From assembly GCF_038446525.1 (NCBI RefSeq), contig NZ_CP151792.1:1612001-1676000 (forward strand): a stretch of 64,000 nucleotides of DNA. Direction: 5' to 3'. Under the pieces are notes generated by a model. The model saw nothing but the letters and a program-made list of their open reading frames with translations. It ran no database searches and was not told where the DNA came from. Of the stretch, positions 44,553-55,049 are shown in pieces (positions within the stretch are counted from its first letter, which is position 1; each line of letters begins with the position of its first letter). The position numbers and the translations under genes are program-made. The stretch is from Methanolobus sp. ZRKC5. Its GTDB lineage: Archaea; Halobacteriota; Methanosarcinia; Methanosarcinales; Methanosarcinaceae.

Positions 44553-45698
44553 GAGGATTTCGATAAACTACCATCAATACCCATACAATTTAATAAAATA
44601 TAAATAATAGCAAAGCAAATTTACTATTATGGATTCTTTTACTGATTTTGCCTTAAATGAAGAATATAAGCGTCTCCAATCTGTCGGAGATAAGCTTGCT
44701 GAAATTGAATATTTAGTAGATTGGAAGCCTTTTCGCCCTATTCTGGAGTCAATGTACATAAACAGAACAGCTTCAGGCGGACGGCCTGAAGCTGATGTTA
44801 TTGTAATGTTCAAGATGCTTGTTCTGCAACAATGGCATGGTCTTTCTGATGCTGAGCTTGAAAAGCAGTGTATTGACAGGATATCCTTTAGGAAATTCCT
44901 GGGATTTCCTGAATATGTACCAGACAGTACAACTGTCTGGTCATTCAGGAAGAGAATTATCGACAATGGTAAAGAAAAAGCGGTGTGGGATGAAATGCAG
45001 AATCAGCTTGATGCTCTTGGTTTGAAGATTAAAAAAGGAATGATCCAGGATGCAACTTTTATTCACTCAGATCCAGGACATGCAAAAGCAGATGTACTCA
45101 GAGGAAAAGATGCGAAAACAAGAAGAAGCAAAGATGGAACCTGGACTAAGAAAAATGGTAAATCTCACTTTGGATACAAACTTCATACAATTATTGATAA
45201 GGATTATGAACTAATCAGAAGATTTGAGACAACAACTGCATCACTTCACGATTCACAGGTTGATCTGTCTGAAAAGGGTGAAGTGGTGTATAGAGATAAA
45301 GGATATTTTGGAGCAATAGCAAAAGGTTTTGCAGCAACAATGCAACGAGCTGTAAGAGGACATCCTTTAGGAATAATGGATATCCTCAGAAATGAAAGAA
45401 TAAGTGTGAAAAGAGTCCCTTGCGAAAGAGTGTATGCAGTGACAAAAGAAATATTTAAAACCAGAAAGGTTCTTGTTACAACTGTAGAAAGAGTGAATGC
45501 AAAAATGTTGATGACAGCTTTTTGTTTTAATCTGCATCAATTGAGGACACTAAAAACCAAAGGAGTAATTTAGGATAGCGGGAGCTATACTAAAAATAAG
45601 GATTAATGAAGAGAAATAAACAAAATGATAAAAAATGAGAGGATATAATTGAGTTTGAATACTTTAATGATCTAAAATGAGGGAATATCGAAATCCTC
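44553..45698 (+). mobile_element. IS5-family insertion sequence (1146 bp)
   Basis: The ends are 13-bp inverted repeats GAGGATTTCGATA (44553-44565 and its complement 45686-45698). A 4-bp direct repeat CAAG at 44549-44552 and 45699-45702 marks the target duplication, as in the IS5 group. One transposase gene is inside. The element splits the cysE-cysK intergenic region; without it the gap would be about 75 bases. Confidence 0.9.
44629..45573 (+). CDS. IS5-family transposase
   Basis: A 314-residue DDE transposase. The N-terminal IS5-type domain reads DWKPFRPILESMYINRTASG and DADVIVMFKMLVLQQW-like PEADVIVMFKMLVLQQW, with SFRKFLGFPEYVPDSTTVW after it. The catalytic core shows GMIQDATFIHSD, KSHFGYKLHTIID and VVYRDKGYFGA, followed by a conserved basic C-terminus (KEIFKTRKVLVTTVERVNAK). 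It appears whole. It is read toward cysK, so element-borne transcription could reach that gene. Confidence 0.9.
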   Translation: MDSFTDFALNEEYKRLQSVGDKLAEIEYLVDWKPFRPILESMYINRTASGGRPEADVIVMFKMLVLQQWHGLSDAELEKQCIDRISFRKFLGFPEYVPDSTTVWSFRKRIIDNGKEKAVWDEMQNQLDALGLKIKKGMIQDATFIHSDPGHAKADVLRGKDAKTRRSKDGTWTKKNGKSHFGYKLHTIIDKDYELIRRFETTTASLHDSQVDLSEKGEVVYRDKGYFGAIAKGFAATMQRAVRGHPLGIMDILRNERISVKRVPCERVYAVTKEIFKTRKVLVTTVERVNAKMLMTAFCFNLHQLRTLKTKGVI

Positions 45699-48045: not shown

Positions 48046-49134
48046 ATGGAACGTGTGATAATCCATGTGGATATGGACTACTTCTACGCTGCTATAGAAG
48101 AGAGGGAAGACCCTTCCCTTAAAGGAAAGGCCGTTGTAGTCTGCATGTATTCGAACAGAGGGGAATCGGGTGGAGCTGTAAGCACATCTAACTATGTTGC
48201 CAGGGAAGCTGGTATACGCTCGGCTATGCCCTGCAAACTGGCAAAATCCAAAAAACCTGATGCCGTTTTCCTGCCGGTGCGCAAGCTGTTCTACGAGGAA
48301 GTTTCTGCAAATGTAATGGAAATATTGAAAGCCAATTCCGACAGCGAAGAAGCCTTCGAGAAGATCAGCATTGATGAGGCTTTCCTTGATATTACTGAAT
48401 CCTGTAAAGGCAATTATGAATTTGCAAAGGAAATTGGCCTGAGAATTAAAGAGGAAGTAAAGTCACAGGAAAGAATAACATGTTCTGTGGGAATAGGTCC
48501 AAACAAGCTTATCGCCAAGATGACATCGTCTTTCCAGAAACCTGATGGAATCACCATTGTCAAACCAGAAGATGCACAGGAATTCCTTAAACCCATGCCT
48601 GTGAAGAAATTATGGGGAATCGGAAAGGTCACTGAAGATAAATTAGCTGAAATAGGTATCAGGACCATTGAAGAACTTGCTGCCTATGATGCCATGGAAC
48701 TGATTTCTGTTTTTGGGAAGAAAAAAGGTATTTGGCTCAAGCAAGCAGCAACCGGCATTGATGAAACTCCTGTAAAAGAAAAGACAACAAGTGACCAGAT
48801 AGGCAGGATGGCATCACTTAAACATGACAGCAGAAATGAGAATATGATATTTTCATTGCTGGACGAACTCATGGATGATGTCATAAACAAAGTTAATGTA
48901 AGAAAAGTGTCTTTTCGTTCTGTAACAGTAACAGTTATATTCTCTAACTTCAAAACTTCAACAAAAAGCCGCACATTAAACCATGTTGTAAATGACAGGG
49001 CTATTCTCAATGAGAATGCAAAGGAACTGATGAACCAGTTCCTTGAGGAAAGTGAGATGAATTTCAGACGTATAGGTGTCAGAGTAGATAGCCTGCAGCA
49101 AAACACCGGTCAAAAGAGCCTGTTTGATTTTTGA
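48046..49134 (+). CDS. dinB: DNA polymerase IV (Y-family translesion polymerase)
   Basis: A 362-residue Y-family polymerase that bypasses damaged bases. The palm motif IHVDMDYFYAAIEEREDP is at residues 4-21, with KISIDEAFLDIT near residue 105 (catalytic Asp/Glu). Helix-hairpin-helix GIGKVTEDKLAEIGI and a little-finger domain follow. It ends in QKSLFDF, a PCNA-binding (PIP-box) type tail. The next gene's start lies 10 bases beyond its stop, so they may be co-transcribed. Confidence 0.94.
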   Translation: MERVIIHVDMDYFYAAIEEREDPSLKGKAVVVCMYSNRGESGGAVSTSNYVAREAGIRSAMPCKLAKSKKPDAVFLPVRKLFYEEVSANVMEILKANSDSEEAFEKISIDEAFLDITESCKGNYEFAKEIGLRIKEEVKSQERITCSVGIGPNKLIAKMTSSFQKPDGITIVKPEDAQEFLKPMPVKKLWGIGKVTEDKLAEIGIRTIEELAAYDAMELISVFGKKKGIWLKQAATGIDETPVKEKTTSDQIGRMASLKHDSRNENMIFSLLDELMDDVINKVNVRKVSFRSVTVTVIFSNFKTSTKSRTLNHVVNDRAILNENAKELMNQFLEESEMNFRRIGVRVDSLQQNTGQKSLFDF

Positions 49135-49144
49135 GGTAAAGATA

Positions 49145-49999
49145 ATGGCTGCATATGAGAATATATATTCTAGCAACAGACCCGATGACAATAACTGGAG
49201 AAGCCGGCTCTATGATGTCATATTTGAGGCAGATAAACCTATAGGAAAATATTTCGATCTCTTGCTTATAGTAAGCATCCTGTTGAGTGTCCTTGCAGTT
49301 ATGCTGGACAGCGTCAGGTCCTTTCGGATTGGAAACGAAGAATTGCTCTATAATATAGAATGGTTTTTCACAATACTTTTTACGATTGAATACATTCTTC
49401 GCCTTATATCCGTTAAAAGCAAGATCCAATATTCAACAAGTCTTTTTGGAATAGTTGATCTGCTGGCAATAGTCCCGACCTATCTGAGCCTGTTCCTTCC
49501 AGGAAGCCAGTTTCTGCTGGTTATAAGGATACTCAGGGTTTTAAGGATATTTCGTATTCTCAAGCTGGTTAAGTACCTTAATGAAGCTGAATTACTAATC
49601 GATGCTTTGAAGGCCAGCAGCCGGAAGATAACTGTTTTTCTTTTTACAGTGCTAACGCTTGTCATTGTCCTGGGATCACTCATGTACCTGATCGAAGGAG
49701 AGGAAAACGGATTCACAAGTATACCAATGAGCATATACTGGGCTATTGTAACCCTGACAACTGTAGGTTTTGGTGACCTTGTGCCACAGACATCACTTGG
49801 AAGAGCTCTGGCTTCTGTTGTTATGATAATGGGTTACAGTATTATTGCTGTTCCCACCGGTATTGTAACAGCTGAGATGAGCCTGGCCTCTATTGATGCA
49901 CGGGATAGGGCAAGACCTAAAATTATCTGCAATAATTGTGGTAATCAGAATAATGATGTAGATGCCCGATTCTGCAAACATTGTGGAATAAAATTATGA
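49145..49999 (+). CDS. Voltage-gated potassium channel-like protein with C-terminal zinc ribbon
   Basis: A 284-residue six-helix channel subunit. Helices S1-S3 are within 35-120. The S4 voltage sensor reads VIRILRVLRIFRILKLVKYL near 125-145 with arginines every third position. The pore has YWAIVTLTTVGFGDLVP with the K+ filter TVGFGD near 205. After the last helix a cytoplasmic tail ends in CNNCGNQNNDVDARFCKHCG, a zinc ribbon not usual on such channels. The start at 49145 has GAGGT ahead; ATG 49124 overlapping dinB is less likely. Confidence 0.88.
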   Translation: MAAYENIYSSNRPDDNNWRSRLYDVIFEADKPIGKYFDLLLIVSILLSVLAVMLDSVRSFRIGNEELLYNIEWFFTILFTIEYILRLISVKSKIQYSTSLFGIVDLLAIVPTYLSLFLPGSQFLLVIRILRVLRIFRILKLVKYLNEAELLIDALKASSRKITVFLFTVLTLVIVLGSLMYLIEGEENGFTSIPMSIYWAIVTLTTVGFGDLVPQTSLGRALASVVMIMGYSIIAVPTGIVTAEMSLASIDARDRARPKIICNNCGNQNNDVDARFCKHCGIKL

Positions 50000-50382: not shown

Positions 50383-51891
50383 GTGATAGACCGTGACCTG
50401 AAAATCGTAACAAGCAACTGGAAGGATTGTGACTCAATACCTGCAAATGAAAAACAGGGGCATTCTTTTTGTTATAGCTGCCTTATGAAGCGAAGCAAAC
50501 CCTGCGAGCCATGCCACTTGATTGAGGTTTTTGCAACCGGTGTATGCAAGAAATTTGAAATTGAAGATCCTCTGGATAATAAAACGAAGCTTGTTGAACT
50601 ATCCCCTGTTTTTGATGATTATGGCAATGTCACAATGGTCGTGCGACATTCAAAGGATATCAGTGAGCGTAAATCTGTAGAAAGAGTCCTTCAGATGAGG
50701 GAAAAACAACAGGCTGCTGTAGCTAAACTTGGACAGGACGGACTTGCCGGGGCAGACCTTGATACTCTGATGCTGGAATCTGTCAAACTTGTAGCCAGCA
50801 CACTTGATGTTGAATATTGCAGAATAATGAAACACGAGGATTCCAATTCTGTCATGATTGCAGGTGTCGGCTGGGGAGAAGAATGCCACAGTGATTCTGA
50901 AACAGAGAATGATGGGAAAAATATAATCTTTTGCTACACTCTCTATTCAGGTGAAAGAGCTATAGTTCATGAGAACAAGACACAGAAAAAATTCAGTGGT
51001 TTATCCTTATTGAAAGATCAGGGAATTGTTAGTGGTATTGATGCGATTATCGGAAGCAAGGACAAGCCTTTCGGAACCATGAACGTACACACCACTCAAA
51101 AAAGAGTGTTCACAAACGATGATATGCACTTTGTGCAATCTGTGACCAATGTGCTTGCCGAGTCCCTGAGCAGAAAGGAGACTGAAGAGAACCTCAAGGA
51201 GTATGCAAAAGAGCTTGAAGATGCAAATTATCTCAAAGTATTGTTCACTGACATACTTACCCATGATCTTCTCAATCCTGCAAATATTATCAGGGGTTTC
51301 ACTGAGGAACTCATTATAGTTGAAGATGAGGATAACAAGAAAAAACTGCTTGACAGAATACACAAGAACAACGAAAAGTTGATCTACATGATAGAATCGG
51401 CTTCTAAGTTCATTAAACTGGAATCTATCGATGATATCAGATTTGAAGAGCAGGATTTTGTACCCATTCTGGAGAAAGTTATCAGGAACTTTGGCCCTGA
51501 AATGAATAAAATGGATATTGAACTTGATTTTAAATCTGCAAGAGAATGCCCTTCACTTATCAATCCTCTGATAGAAGAAGTATTCCTGAATCTGCTTTCC
51601 AATGCCATTAAATTCAGCCCTCCAAAAGGAAAAATAACAATTGATATCTCAGATATAGGGGATAAATGGAAAATCAAGGTCAATGATGTTGGTCCGGGTA
51701 TCAGCAATGAGGACAAGGCCATGATATTTGAGCGTTTCAGGCAGGCAGACAAGGGAAGCGTAAAAGGAAGCGGTCTTGGGCTGGCCATTGTCAAGAGAAT
51801 TGTCGAACTCCACAATGGAGAAGTCGGTGTGGACAACAATCCACTTGGAAAGGGAAGTGTATTCTGGTTCACTATTAAAAAAGCATTGTGA
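50383..51891 (+). CDS. PAS-GAF sensor histidine kinase (N-terminus uncertain)
   Basis: Two-component sensor of 502 residues from the first in-frame GTG. A PAS-like domain (about 1-95) carries four cysteines in CYSCLMKRSKPCEPC, which could hold a metal or redox group. A GAF domain follows (about 115-270), then HisKA with TDILTHDLLNPANIIRG (phospho-accepting His near 294) and a HATPase domain with NLLSNAIKFSPPKG, VNDVGPGIS and GSGLGLAIVKRIVELHNGE. No membrane helix, so it is probably cytoplasmic. No response regulator is adjacent. Coding-like sequence continues upstream of the GTG without a start codon. Confidence 0.82.
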   Translation: MIDRDLKIVTSNWKDCDSIPANEKQGHSFCYSCLMKRSKPCEPCHLIEVFATGVCKKFEIEDPLDNKTKLVELSPVFDDYGNVTMVVRHSKDISERKSVERVLQMREKQQAAVAKLGQDGLAGADLDTLMLESVKLVASTLDVEYCRIMKHEDSNSVMIAGVGWGEECHSDSETENDGKNIIFCYTLYSGERAIVHENKTQKKFSGLSLLKDQGIVSGIDAIIGSKDKPFGTMNVHTTQKRVFTNDDMHFVQSVTNVLAESLSRKETEENLKEYAKELEDANYLKVLFTDILTHDLLNPANIIRGFTEELIIVEDEDNKKKLLDRIHKNNEKLIYMIESASKFIKLESIDDIRFEEQDFVPILEKVIRNFGPEMNKMDIELDFKSARECPSLINPLIEEVFLNLLSNAIKFSPPKGKITIDISDIGDKWKIKVNDVGPGISNEDKAMIFERFRQADKGSVKGSGLGLAIVKRIVELHNGEVGVDNNPLGKGSVFWFTIKKAL

Positions 51892-53427: not shown

Positions 53428-55049
53428 GTAACTATTCAGCCTAGCTCACTTCCACCAAGCTGATTTCTTCATCCACGATCAATTCTGCAACTTTGGAACA
53501 AATGAATTGCCATAAAATATTGCACTAATTGCATCGATAACAGATTCAGAATTCTTATTAACAGTAGACACGTATCCTCTTATACGGCAGAAATTTTTTG
53601 CACCCTGTTTACTGCGGAAAGTACCTGATATCTTCTGCTGTACTTTCGTCATTCTGATATCTCTTTCAGCCTGATTGTTATCAAACGGAACGTTTTGGTC
53701 GTACATAAATCGCAAGATATCCTCTTTATGGCCAATAAACCTATCCAGCAAATTCTTTACCGTGGTCTGCTTCTTACGTCCTCGTTTTTTAGACCGCACA
53801 TTTGATTCCGGATCAGGAGGATTTTCATTCACTCCTAAACAAGTTATGTGATCATAATCCTCACTGAACCTTTGAATTAGCTCAGTATCTAAAAGATCAT
53901 TATCAACATGATGTTTAATGCATATCAAGAGATCACTCATTATCTTTGGCCACTGTTGATCCCTGTTTTCGGAAGCTCCAGTTAACTCTCGTAATAAATG
54001 TGCATTACATAATGAATGTTGACATTCATATTTGTTGTACGGTTTCCAAAAATCATGTGTTGCAACACCAGTGTAACCTGGTAATATGCCCATAGCATCC
54101 ATTGCTTCTGAGCCCCTTTTGCGATGTGCAAAATAATAGGTCAGTTTGTCTGTACCTGCCACATGAAGCCAATTACGAACTGCATTTATTCTCATTCCTG
54201 TTTCATCCAGATTGATGACAGGAGATTCTTTCAGGAGATGTTTCACTGTATTTTCAAAAGCTCCAAGCTTCTCAAAACAACTACGTTCCGTGTTCACCAA
54301 AGTAGCAGGACTTATCTTGCATCCCAAAATATCAGAGAACAACTTGGTAACACGCTGATAAGGAAGTAATTGGTAAGTGTGCAAATAAACTGCAAATGAC
54401 TTAACTCGATGACCGTATTGAGTCGGCTGAGTTACACCATCTGGAAAAAGAGCTTTGTTTACATGAGAACATTTGGGACATGTTTTAATCTCGCAACGAT
54501 GTTCAATGCAATTGATAGTTATAGGAGGAATGTCAAAGACCTGTCTTCTTTCATAGTTAGAGGGAACAGAAGCTAACGATCTCCCACAATTGACGCATTG
54601 ATTAACAGGATGAACAATAACTTCATCCGGATCATCATTTATTCTTAATGTAGTACCAGGATGACCGTTTTGACCACCTACATGCTTATTGGTCTTTTTT
54701 CTTTGACTTTTAACGGTTGGTTTATTCCGTGCATAAGAATCAGTAGAAGGTGGTTTGCTACTGTTGCGACTATTCTTTTCAAGCATTTCTTCCAAATGCC
54801 TGACACGCTCTTCAAGTTGTGCAATTTGGAGAGATTGATGTTCAATTATCCCAAGTAATCGAGTTACAAGTTCTACTACTGCTTCTGGACCAGCTTCATA
54901 AACTGCAAGTATTTCTTCGCGGTCTATACAAATCCCCTCAGATTGATAGACGTTTTTTATGATATTTTACTGAATATTTTTTAACACATAGAATGAAGCC
55001 ATAGTATATTGTTTTTTGCATCATTAAAACAGTTAGGCTGAATAGTTAC
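53428..55049 (-). mobile_element. IS66-family insertion sequence (1622 bp)
   Basis: Perfect 15-bp terminal inverted repeats GTAACTATTCAGCCT (53428-53442 and complement 55035-55049) and an 8-bp target duplication CTTGTTTT at 53420-53427 and 55050-55057. It contains a single transposase gene; the accessory tnpA/tnpB genes of larger IS66 elements are absent. The same ends and duplication length are found on the three MITEs in this window. Confidence 0.95.
53479..54927 (-). CDS. IS66-family transposase
   Basis: DDE transposase. From the first in-frame ATG (54795) it has 438 residues, but the frame is open and coding-like for about 45 more codons upstream (ICIDREEILAVYEAGPEAVV, then ELVTRLLGIIE and a leucine-rich coiled coil RVRHLEEMLEK), so the real start is near 54927. 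No ATG, GTG or TTG fits there; GAGGGG at 54939-54934 sits just ahead of ATT and ATA codons. The core shows zinc-finger cysteines (CVNCG, CPKCSH) and catalytic residues in NLDETGMRIN, VATHDFWKPY and FDNNQAERDIRM. It looks whole apart from the start. Confidence 0.88.
   Translation of the reverse strand: MDREEILAVYEAGPEAVVELVTRLLGIIEHQSLQIAQLEERVRHLEEMLEKNSRNSSKPPSTDSYARNKPTVKSQRKKTNKHVGGQNGHPGTTLRINDDPDEVIVHPVNQCVNCGRSLASVPSNYERRQVFDIPPITINCIEHRCEIKTCPKCSHVNKALFPDGVTQPTQYGHRVKSFAVYLHTYQLLPYQRVTKLFSDILGCKISPATLVNTERSCFEKLGAFENTVKHLLKESPVINLDETGMRINAVRNWLHVAGTDKLTYYFAHRKRGSEAMDAMGILPGYTGVATHDFWKPYNKYECQHSLCNAHLLRELTGASENRDQQWPKIMSDLLICIKHHVDNDLLDTELIQRFSEDYDHITCLGVNENPPDPESNVRSKKRGRKKQTTVKNLLDRFIGHKEDILRFMYDQNVPFDNNQAERDIRMTKVQQKISGTFRSKQGAKNFCRIRGYVSTVNKNSESVIDAISAIFYGNSFVPKLQN

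Follow-up and report, generated by a model that had tools for sequence, protein, structure and literature searches.

A C-terminal zinc ribbon as a standard part of a subfamily of predicted Kv-type channels, represented in Methanolobus sp. ZRKC5

The window analysed here is a 64,000 nucleotide stretch of Methanolobus sp. ZRKC5 [RefSeq:GCF_038446525.1, contig NZ_CP151792.1, positions 1,612,001 to 1,676,000], and at window positions 49145-49999 (+) it holds an open reading frame (ORF) running from ATG to TGA whose 284 residue product combines a voltage-gated potassium channel of Kv type with a C-terminal zinc ribbon. Sequence comparison indicates that this predicted channel is an ordinary member of a subfamily that is widespread over many phyla yet patchy in its occurrence, and that the ribbon is a standard part of the subfamily. 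As to what the ribbons do, the reading we prefer, at a probability of about 0.45, is that they mainly form a constitutive, zinc-stabilised collar for tetramer assembly and gating.

The predicted channel and its ribbon

The gene product has the Ion_trans S1-S6 fold, an arginine-rich S4 with acidic partners in S2 and S3, and a TVG[YF]GD filter, and on these features the gene is predicted to encode a voltage-gated K+ channel subunit of the Kv type. Pfam matches Ion_trans to residues 35-246 (E 9e-36). The K+ selectivity filter TVGFGD occupies residues 206-211 (49760-49777, +), its GFGD beginning at residue 208; across 102 aligned rows T206, V207, G208 and G210 are invariant and D211 is conserved in at least 90%. 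The S4 voltage-sensor helix (residues 123-138; 49511-49558, +), delimited by the AlphaFold2 helix and by conservation, carries R128, R131, R134 and R137, with K140 next; the first three arginines are invariant in the same rows and R137 and K140 are conserved in at least 90%. Also invariant are E82 and D105, the acidic S2/S3 partners, and F79, residues that together with the S4 arginines presumably take part in gating-charge transfer.

An AlphaFold2 monomer model built on the 102 aligned sequences contains helices S1-S6 and a confident tail (mean predicted local distance difference test score, pLDDT, 87.8; predicted template modelling score, pTM, 0.68), with pLDDT of about 90 over ribbon residues 261-284. 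S6 is predicted as a single continuous helix over residues 217-256 (49793-49912, +) and the first ribbon cysteine is residue 262; since the helix is predicted to extend as far as residue 256, the ribbon would sit close behind the gate helix. The top fold match of the model is Kv1.2 (Foldseek E 4.8e-10, template modelling score 0.65 by query length), the sequence matches the Kv1.2-Kv2.1 chimera at E 2.9e-29, and eukaryotic Kv channels head the list of solved chains matched by sequence. None of the best 60 of 359 and best 60 of 193 solved-chain matches covers the ribbon; they end at residue 247 or at profile position 254 of 276.

The S1-S6 core, arginine-rich S4 and TVGxGD filter are shared with the Shaker-type channels Kv1-Kv4 (e.g. 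Kv2.1, 8sd3; Kv4.2, 7ukf). Those channels have an N-terminal T1 domain, whereas the window channel lacks T1 and instead carries one C-terminal ribbon per subunit: about 30 residues precede S1, and no T1/BTB family (Kv2-Kv4 type, HX5CX20CC) is among the 11 Pfam matches at E up to 1. The archaeal chains 1orq and 6uwm, which we take to be KvAP, are likewise prokaryotic six-helix Kv channels and match the family profile at E 1.2e-28 and 2.2e-28; these matches (chain lengths 223 and 287) are weaker than those to eukaryotic Kv1-Kv4 and end by profile position 240 of 276. Another archaeal voltage-gated K+ channel, the hyperpolarisation-activated methanogen family NF040645 (presumably MVP), does not include the window channel, which scores 57.5 bits against a cut-off of 300.

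The tail cysteines 262, 265, 277 and 280 are spaced C-x2-C-x11-C-x2-C. Zn_ribbon_3 (PF13248) matches residues 259-284 (49919-49996, +) at 27.4 bits, just over its cut-off of 27, and also matches 42 of the 102 aligned rows at E up to 0.01; Zn_Ribbon_1 (PF13240) falls narrowly below threshold on the same tail (24.6 bits, cut-off 25). Both families share the two CxxC knuckles with the window copy, which differs in its fusion to a voltage-gated channel. C277 and C280 are invariant in the aligned rows and C262 and C265 are conserved in at least 90%. The original prediction, drawn from this stretch alone, had described a complete S1-S6 channel with a GFGD filter that ends in a CxxC...CxxC zinc ribbon, and the profile, alignment and model results bear it out on both counts. 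It is very improbable that the four cysteines bind iron rather than zinc, as a rubredoxin-like pair of knuckles: CxxCG knuckles also form rubredoxin sites and the source organism is a methanogen, whereas the Pfam families matched are zinc ribbons, the spacing between pairs is 11 in 123 of 126 full-ribbon rows (it is longer in rubredoxin), and the tail is also found in many bacterial phyla.

Distribution of the ribbon and selection on it

Distinct intact relatives at a core identity of 45% or more number 131, of which 126 have a full ribbon, four an altered first cysteine pair and one no ribbon. The alteration is a pair of adjacent cysteines in three loci (L196, L269 and L275, of which L196 comes from the same Chlorobaculum genome as L067) and CxxH in L268, a divergent relative whose first pair is still compatible with zinc. 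In L297:1468-2679, from the Acidobacteria sample, an SLFN_AlbA_2 domain (E 6e-17) stands in the ribbon's place. A full ribbon was called by our own pattern (C..C, 6-25 residues, C..C), under which CxxH and CC variants go uncounted. Chance occurrence of the motif is ruled out, as only 2 of 340 script-called ORFs beside bacterial relatives carry it in their last 60 residues, and the 126 relatives that share the ribbon rule out an unusual or unique fusion.

These counts derive from several samples. A first scan found 255 encoding stretches, 80 of which were kept; 78 carry the motif, the exceptions being L067 (altered first pair) and L069 (a script misreading). Because one of the search peptides lay in the ribbon, later searches used residues 1-250 only, against 27 genomes of the genus, 294 of the phylum and 10 reached via first-scan loci, and further against the phyla of four first-scan genomes, with 20 extra regions fetched. 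Rows above 45% identity occur in 15 of 150 genomes in the sample centred on Chromatiales, 13 of 59 in Planctomycetota, 51 of 118 around Melioribacteraceae and 12 of 80 in Acidobacteria. Without the 11 rows (L191-L201) that stem from the ribbon-biased first scan, 10 of them full and one altered, the count is 116 of 120. Thirty bacterial loci were taken from the first phylum sample, the lower rows of that sample and of the third not being included; the distant archaeal set comprises 60 rows taken down the archaeal phylum list, with some skipped. Left out were frameshifted, partial or contig-end copies (L103, L104 and their repeats L110 and L111; L105, L252, L255, L313, L319), pore-only or other genes (L107-L109, L112, L203, L205-L213) and fragments (G629, G575); L106, L204 and L299 were left out of the tree. 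The 131 relatives, which come from Methanosarcinaceae and several bacterial phyla, fall on one side of a branch with support 93, opposite 80 more distant channels, and the nearest relatives of the window channel are those of Methanolobus. No paper on ribbon-tailed channels of this subfamily, or on the single-knuckle tails of their distant kin described below, was found in the portion of the open-access literature searched.

The original prediction that zinc ribbons are not usual on Kv channels accordingly fails for this subfamily; it holds better among distant archaeal Kv channels, where 7 of the 60 rows fetched have a full ribbon. The tail persists downstream even in several frameshifted or partly deleted copies, as the full motif in L015, L033, L105 and L319 and as the adjacent-cysteine version in L313. 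In another interrupted copy, L252 from the Planctomycetota sample, an in-frame TAG stands at the codon of a conserved pore-helix tryptophan and may reflect mutation, assembly error or recoding.

Codon usage and substitution patterns point to constraint on the ribbon. In 37 distinct Methanosarcinaceae copies all four cysteines are fixed while each is encoded by TGC in 15-24 copies and by TGT in the remainder; D271, K278 and G281 are likewise fixed. Among the 10 closest copies the ratio of non-synonymous to synonymous polymorphism (pN/pS) is 0.18 for the ribbon, 0.40 for the linker and 0.23 for the N-terminus, as compared with 0.08 for S4-S5, 0.09 for the pore, and 0.13-0.15 for S6 and S1-S3. 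These values indicate that the ribbon is maintained by purifying selection stronger than that on the preceding linker, which is loose. The original prediction had also named the condition that would speak against it, namely that such ribbons prove common and dispensable on archaeal channels; common they are, within the subfamily, whereas in intact genes its conservation under selection argues against the ribbon being dispensable.

This selection test already disfavours the idea that the ribbon is a neutral passenger, acquired once in the ancestor of the subfamily and retained by inertia. Zinc ribbons are common domains (Zn_ribbon_3 matches 13 times in the organism's genome at E up to 1, two of these matches exceeding the cut-off), and the whole channel gene is lost or broken in 7 of 27 Methanolobus genomes, as a passenger would allow; set against the fixed cysteines with alternating synonymous codons, the ribbon's low pN/pS and its retention in nearly all intact relatives, we give inertia scarcely any credence.

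Possible roles of the ribbon, and the tails of more distant channels

In the collar reading the channel would be a homotetramer, K+-selective and gated by depolarisation. Each subunit would hold a Zn(Cys)4 ribbon, zinc being the probable metal, with a few coil residues linking it to the end of the S6 gate helix, and the four ribbons would hang just beneath the inner gate to form a collar. Other K+ channels use T1, RCK, cyclic-nucleotide-binding or coiled-coil domains for assembly and gating, a job that the collar would do here. The observations behind this proposal are the order of the domains, the near-universal tail in the sampled subfamily, the cysteines under selection, and an S6 helix predicted to end within six residues of the first cysteine. 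We prefer it because of two precedents and because no neighbour gene is widely shared. The first precedent is exchange with SHOCT: proteins with Ion_trans and a SHOCT tail share a short C-terminal module after S6, SHOCT in their case and a zinc ribbon here, and the section that covers SHOCT on ion-channel C-termini treats it under oligomeric proteins (PMC3581485). The second is the intersubunit zinc between T1 domains of Kv2-Kv4, which is required for Kv3 and Kv4 T1 tetramers and stabilises that of Kv2.1 (PMC9159280).

Tails of channels below 45% identity are more diverse. By our own pattern the 80 archaeal and bacterial examples divide into 44 with a single CxxC (28 of them CPHCG), 16 with a full ribbon, 8 with SHOCT and 12 with neither, whereas of the 340 control ORFs 10 have a CxxC anywhere in their last 60 residues. 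A Pfam scan of 83 distant channels identifies SHOCT in 10, so that our pattern under-calls it and some of the rows counted as tail-less are SHOCT-like; the SHOCT-tailed form is present in distant archaeal relatives, e.g. L135. Archaeal examples of the CPHCG-type single knuckle are L131, L132, L134, L136, L139, L151, L163, L166, L170 and L178. The four tail states require 15 changes over 211 rows on a FastTree tree in which, by the program's own warning, some joins lie on long branches. Because the distant channels end variously in CxxC, SHOCT or a ribbon, the position after S6 appears to be a site at which small modules can be exchanged. A separate set of short genes (frames of about 119-164 codons) matches the pore half of the channel at 47-54% identity (G224:C1:2161390-2161671, G058:C1:637723-637947, L112 and G020:C1:1940037-1940327), as if the pore module persisted without a voltage sensor.

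Several points count against the collar. Our searches turned up neither a solved structure nor an assay for any subfamily member, and the AlphaFold2 model, being of a monomer, is silent on contacts between ribbons. The linker differs between copies both in sequence (mean pairwise identity 0.29) and in length (15-30 residues from the PTG motif to the first cysteine, median 19, in 124 rows), which would equally suit a module for docking or sensing on a loose tether, and ribbon positions other than the cysteines are mostly very variable, except D271, A274, K278 and G281, which is weak for one fixed subunit interface. When the tree is restricted to the distant rows, a single change accounts for the full ribbon; its 16 occurrences then fall on the same side of a branch and may therefore be a single event rather than repeated swaps. 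Finally, since the gene is broken or missing in those 7 Methanolobus genomes, the channel is not essential.

Two other roles compete with the collar, and we consider both unlikely. The ribbon could be a redox or metal sensor, in which oxidation or zinc loss would unfold it and shift gating, with loss or retention of cellular K+ under stress as the outcome. Zn(Cys)4 sites are open to oxidation, the predicted position close behind the S6 gate helix would suit such a switch, and a few lineages alter the first cysteine pair, so the site may be tuned; yet the subfamily spans many bacterial phyla, a spread that in itself gives no hint of a tie to one redox niche, and the dinB neighbour described below is lineage-specific and hence weak support for a stress regulon. 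It is similarly doubtful that the ribbon is a docking tag for a cytosolic partner, nucleic acid or membrane surface, as its variable, tether-like linker might suggest: none of the neighbour families was found in over 4 of the 49 bacterial loci, a count in which strongly diverged neighbours would escape detection, and most ribbon positions other than the cysteines are highly variable.

An extension of the collar to other tails is also improbable in our estimation, namely that prokaryotic Kv channels in general use cysteine tails to assemble and to gate. Subunits of the window subfamily would each have their own Zn(Cys)4 ribbon, and many channels of the wider archaeal set would have one CPHCG knuckle each, with the metal shared between subunits under the pore, as an independently evolved C-terminal counterpart of the intersubunit T1 zinc of Kv2-Kv4. 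A single CPHCG-type knuckle is unable alone to supply four cysteine ligands to a metal; with one knuckle per subunit, neighbouring subunits would have to share it.

Gene neighbourhood, loss and origin

Upstream of the channel gene lies dinB, encoding a Y-family DNA polymerase (48046-49134, +; Pfam IMS E 1e-41), and the 10 bases between its end and the channel start at 49145 agree with the original prediction. GAGGT at 49133-49137 (+), read by eye, overlaps the dinB stop codon 7 nt upstream of the channel ATG and may serve as a ribosome-binding site; the two genes are likely co-transcribed. Downstream is a GAF/HisKA/HATPase_c histidine kinase (50383-51891, +; Pfam), its start codon uncertain. 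The order dinB, channel, histidine kinase is kept in Methanolobus loci and in L011; L113 has dinB upstream of the channel, with no kinase found in its short flank. dinB was not found in the other loci of the same family (L114-L130, about 1.5 kb covered per side) or in the bacterial first-scan loci (up to 4 kb per side). The pairing with dinB, which the original prediction had called odd, is thus real and at the same time a lineage-specific gene order of Methanolobus and its close relatives; for that reason we set aside a functional partnership with dinB.

In the 27 Methanolobus genomes the channel gene is intact in 20, split between frames in two (L103, L104), reduced to an internally deleted remnant in one (L105), and without an orthologue in four. 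The broken copies L103, L104 and L105 stand behind dinB; L103 seems to be identical with L015 and L104 with L033. As judged from these genomes the whole channel can be lost, and where the channel is kept the ribbon is kept too.

A quick tree nests the Methanosarcinaceae channels among bacterial ones (Shimodaira-Hasegawa-like approximate likelihood ratio support 86); a tree that holds all bacteria together scores better and is not rejected (approximately unbiased test, p 0.917). In the archaeal phylum sample, listed by E-value, full-length matches above 45% identity come only from the window's own family, which still suggests horizontal transfer in some direction. Elsewhere in the window, a transposase-like ORF (44629-45573), which we take to be IS5-like, separates cysE from cysK, whereas in relatives such as L003 and L004 the matches to these two genes have a gap of about 74 bases; a second transposase-like ORF (53479-54795, -) is presumably IS66-like.

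A clade of prokaryotic Kv channels thus appears to carry an obligatory metal module directly below the gate. If this module controls assembly or gating, such small channels (284 residues in the window) would be simple models of how metals hold or tune tetrameric channels, and also of how cytoplasmic domains are swapped in Kv evolution.
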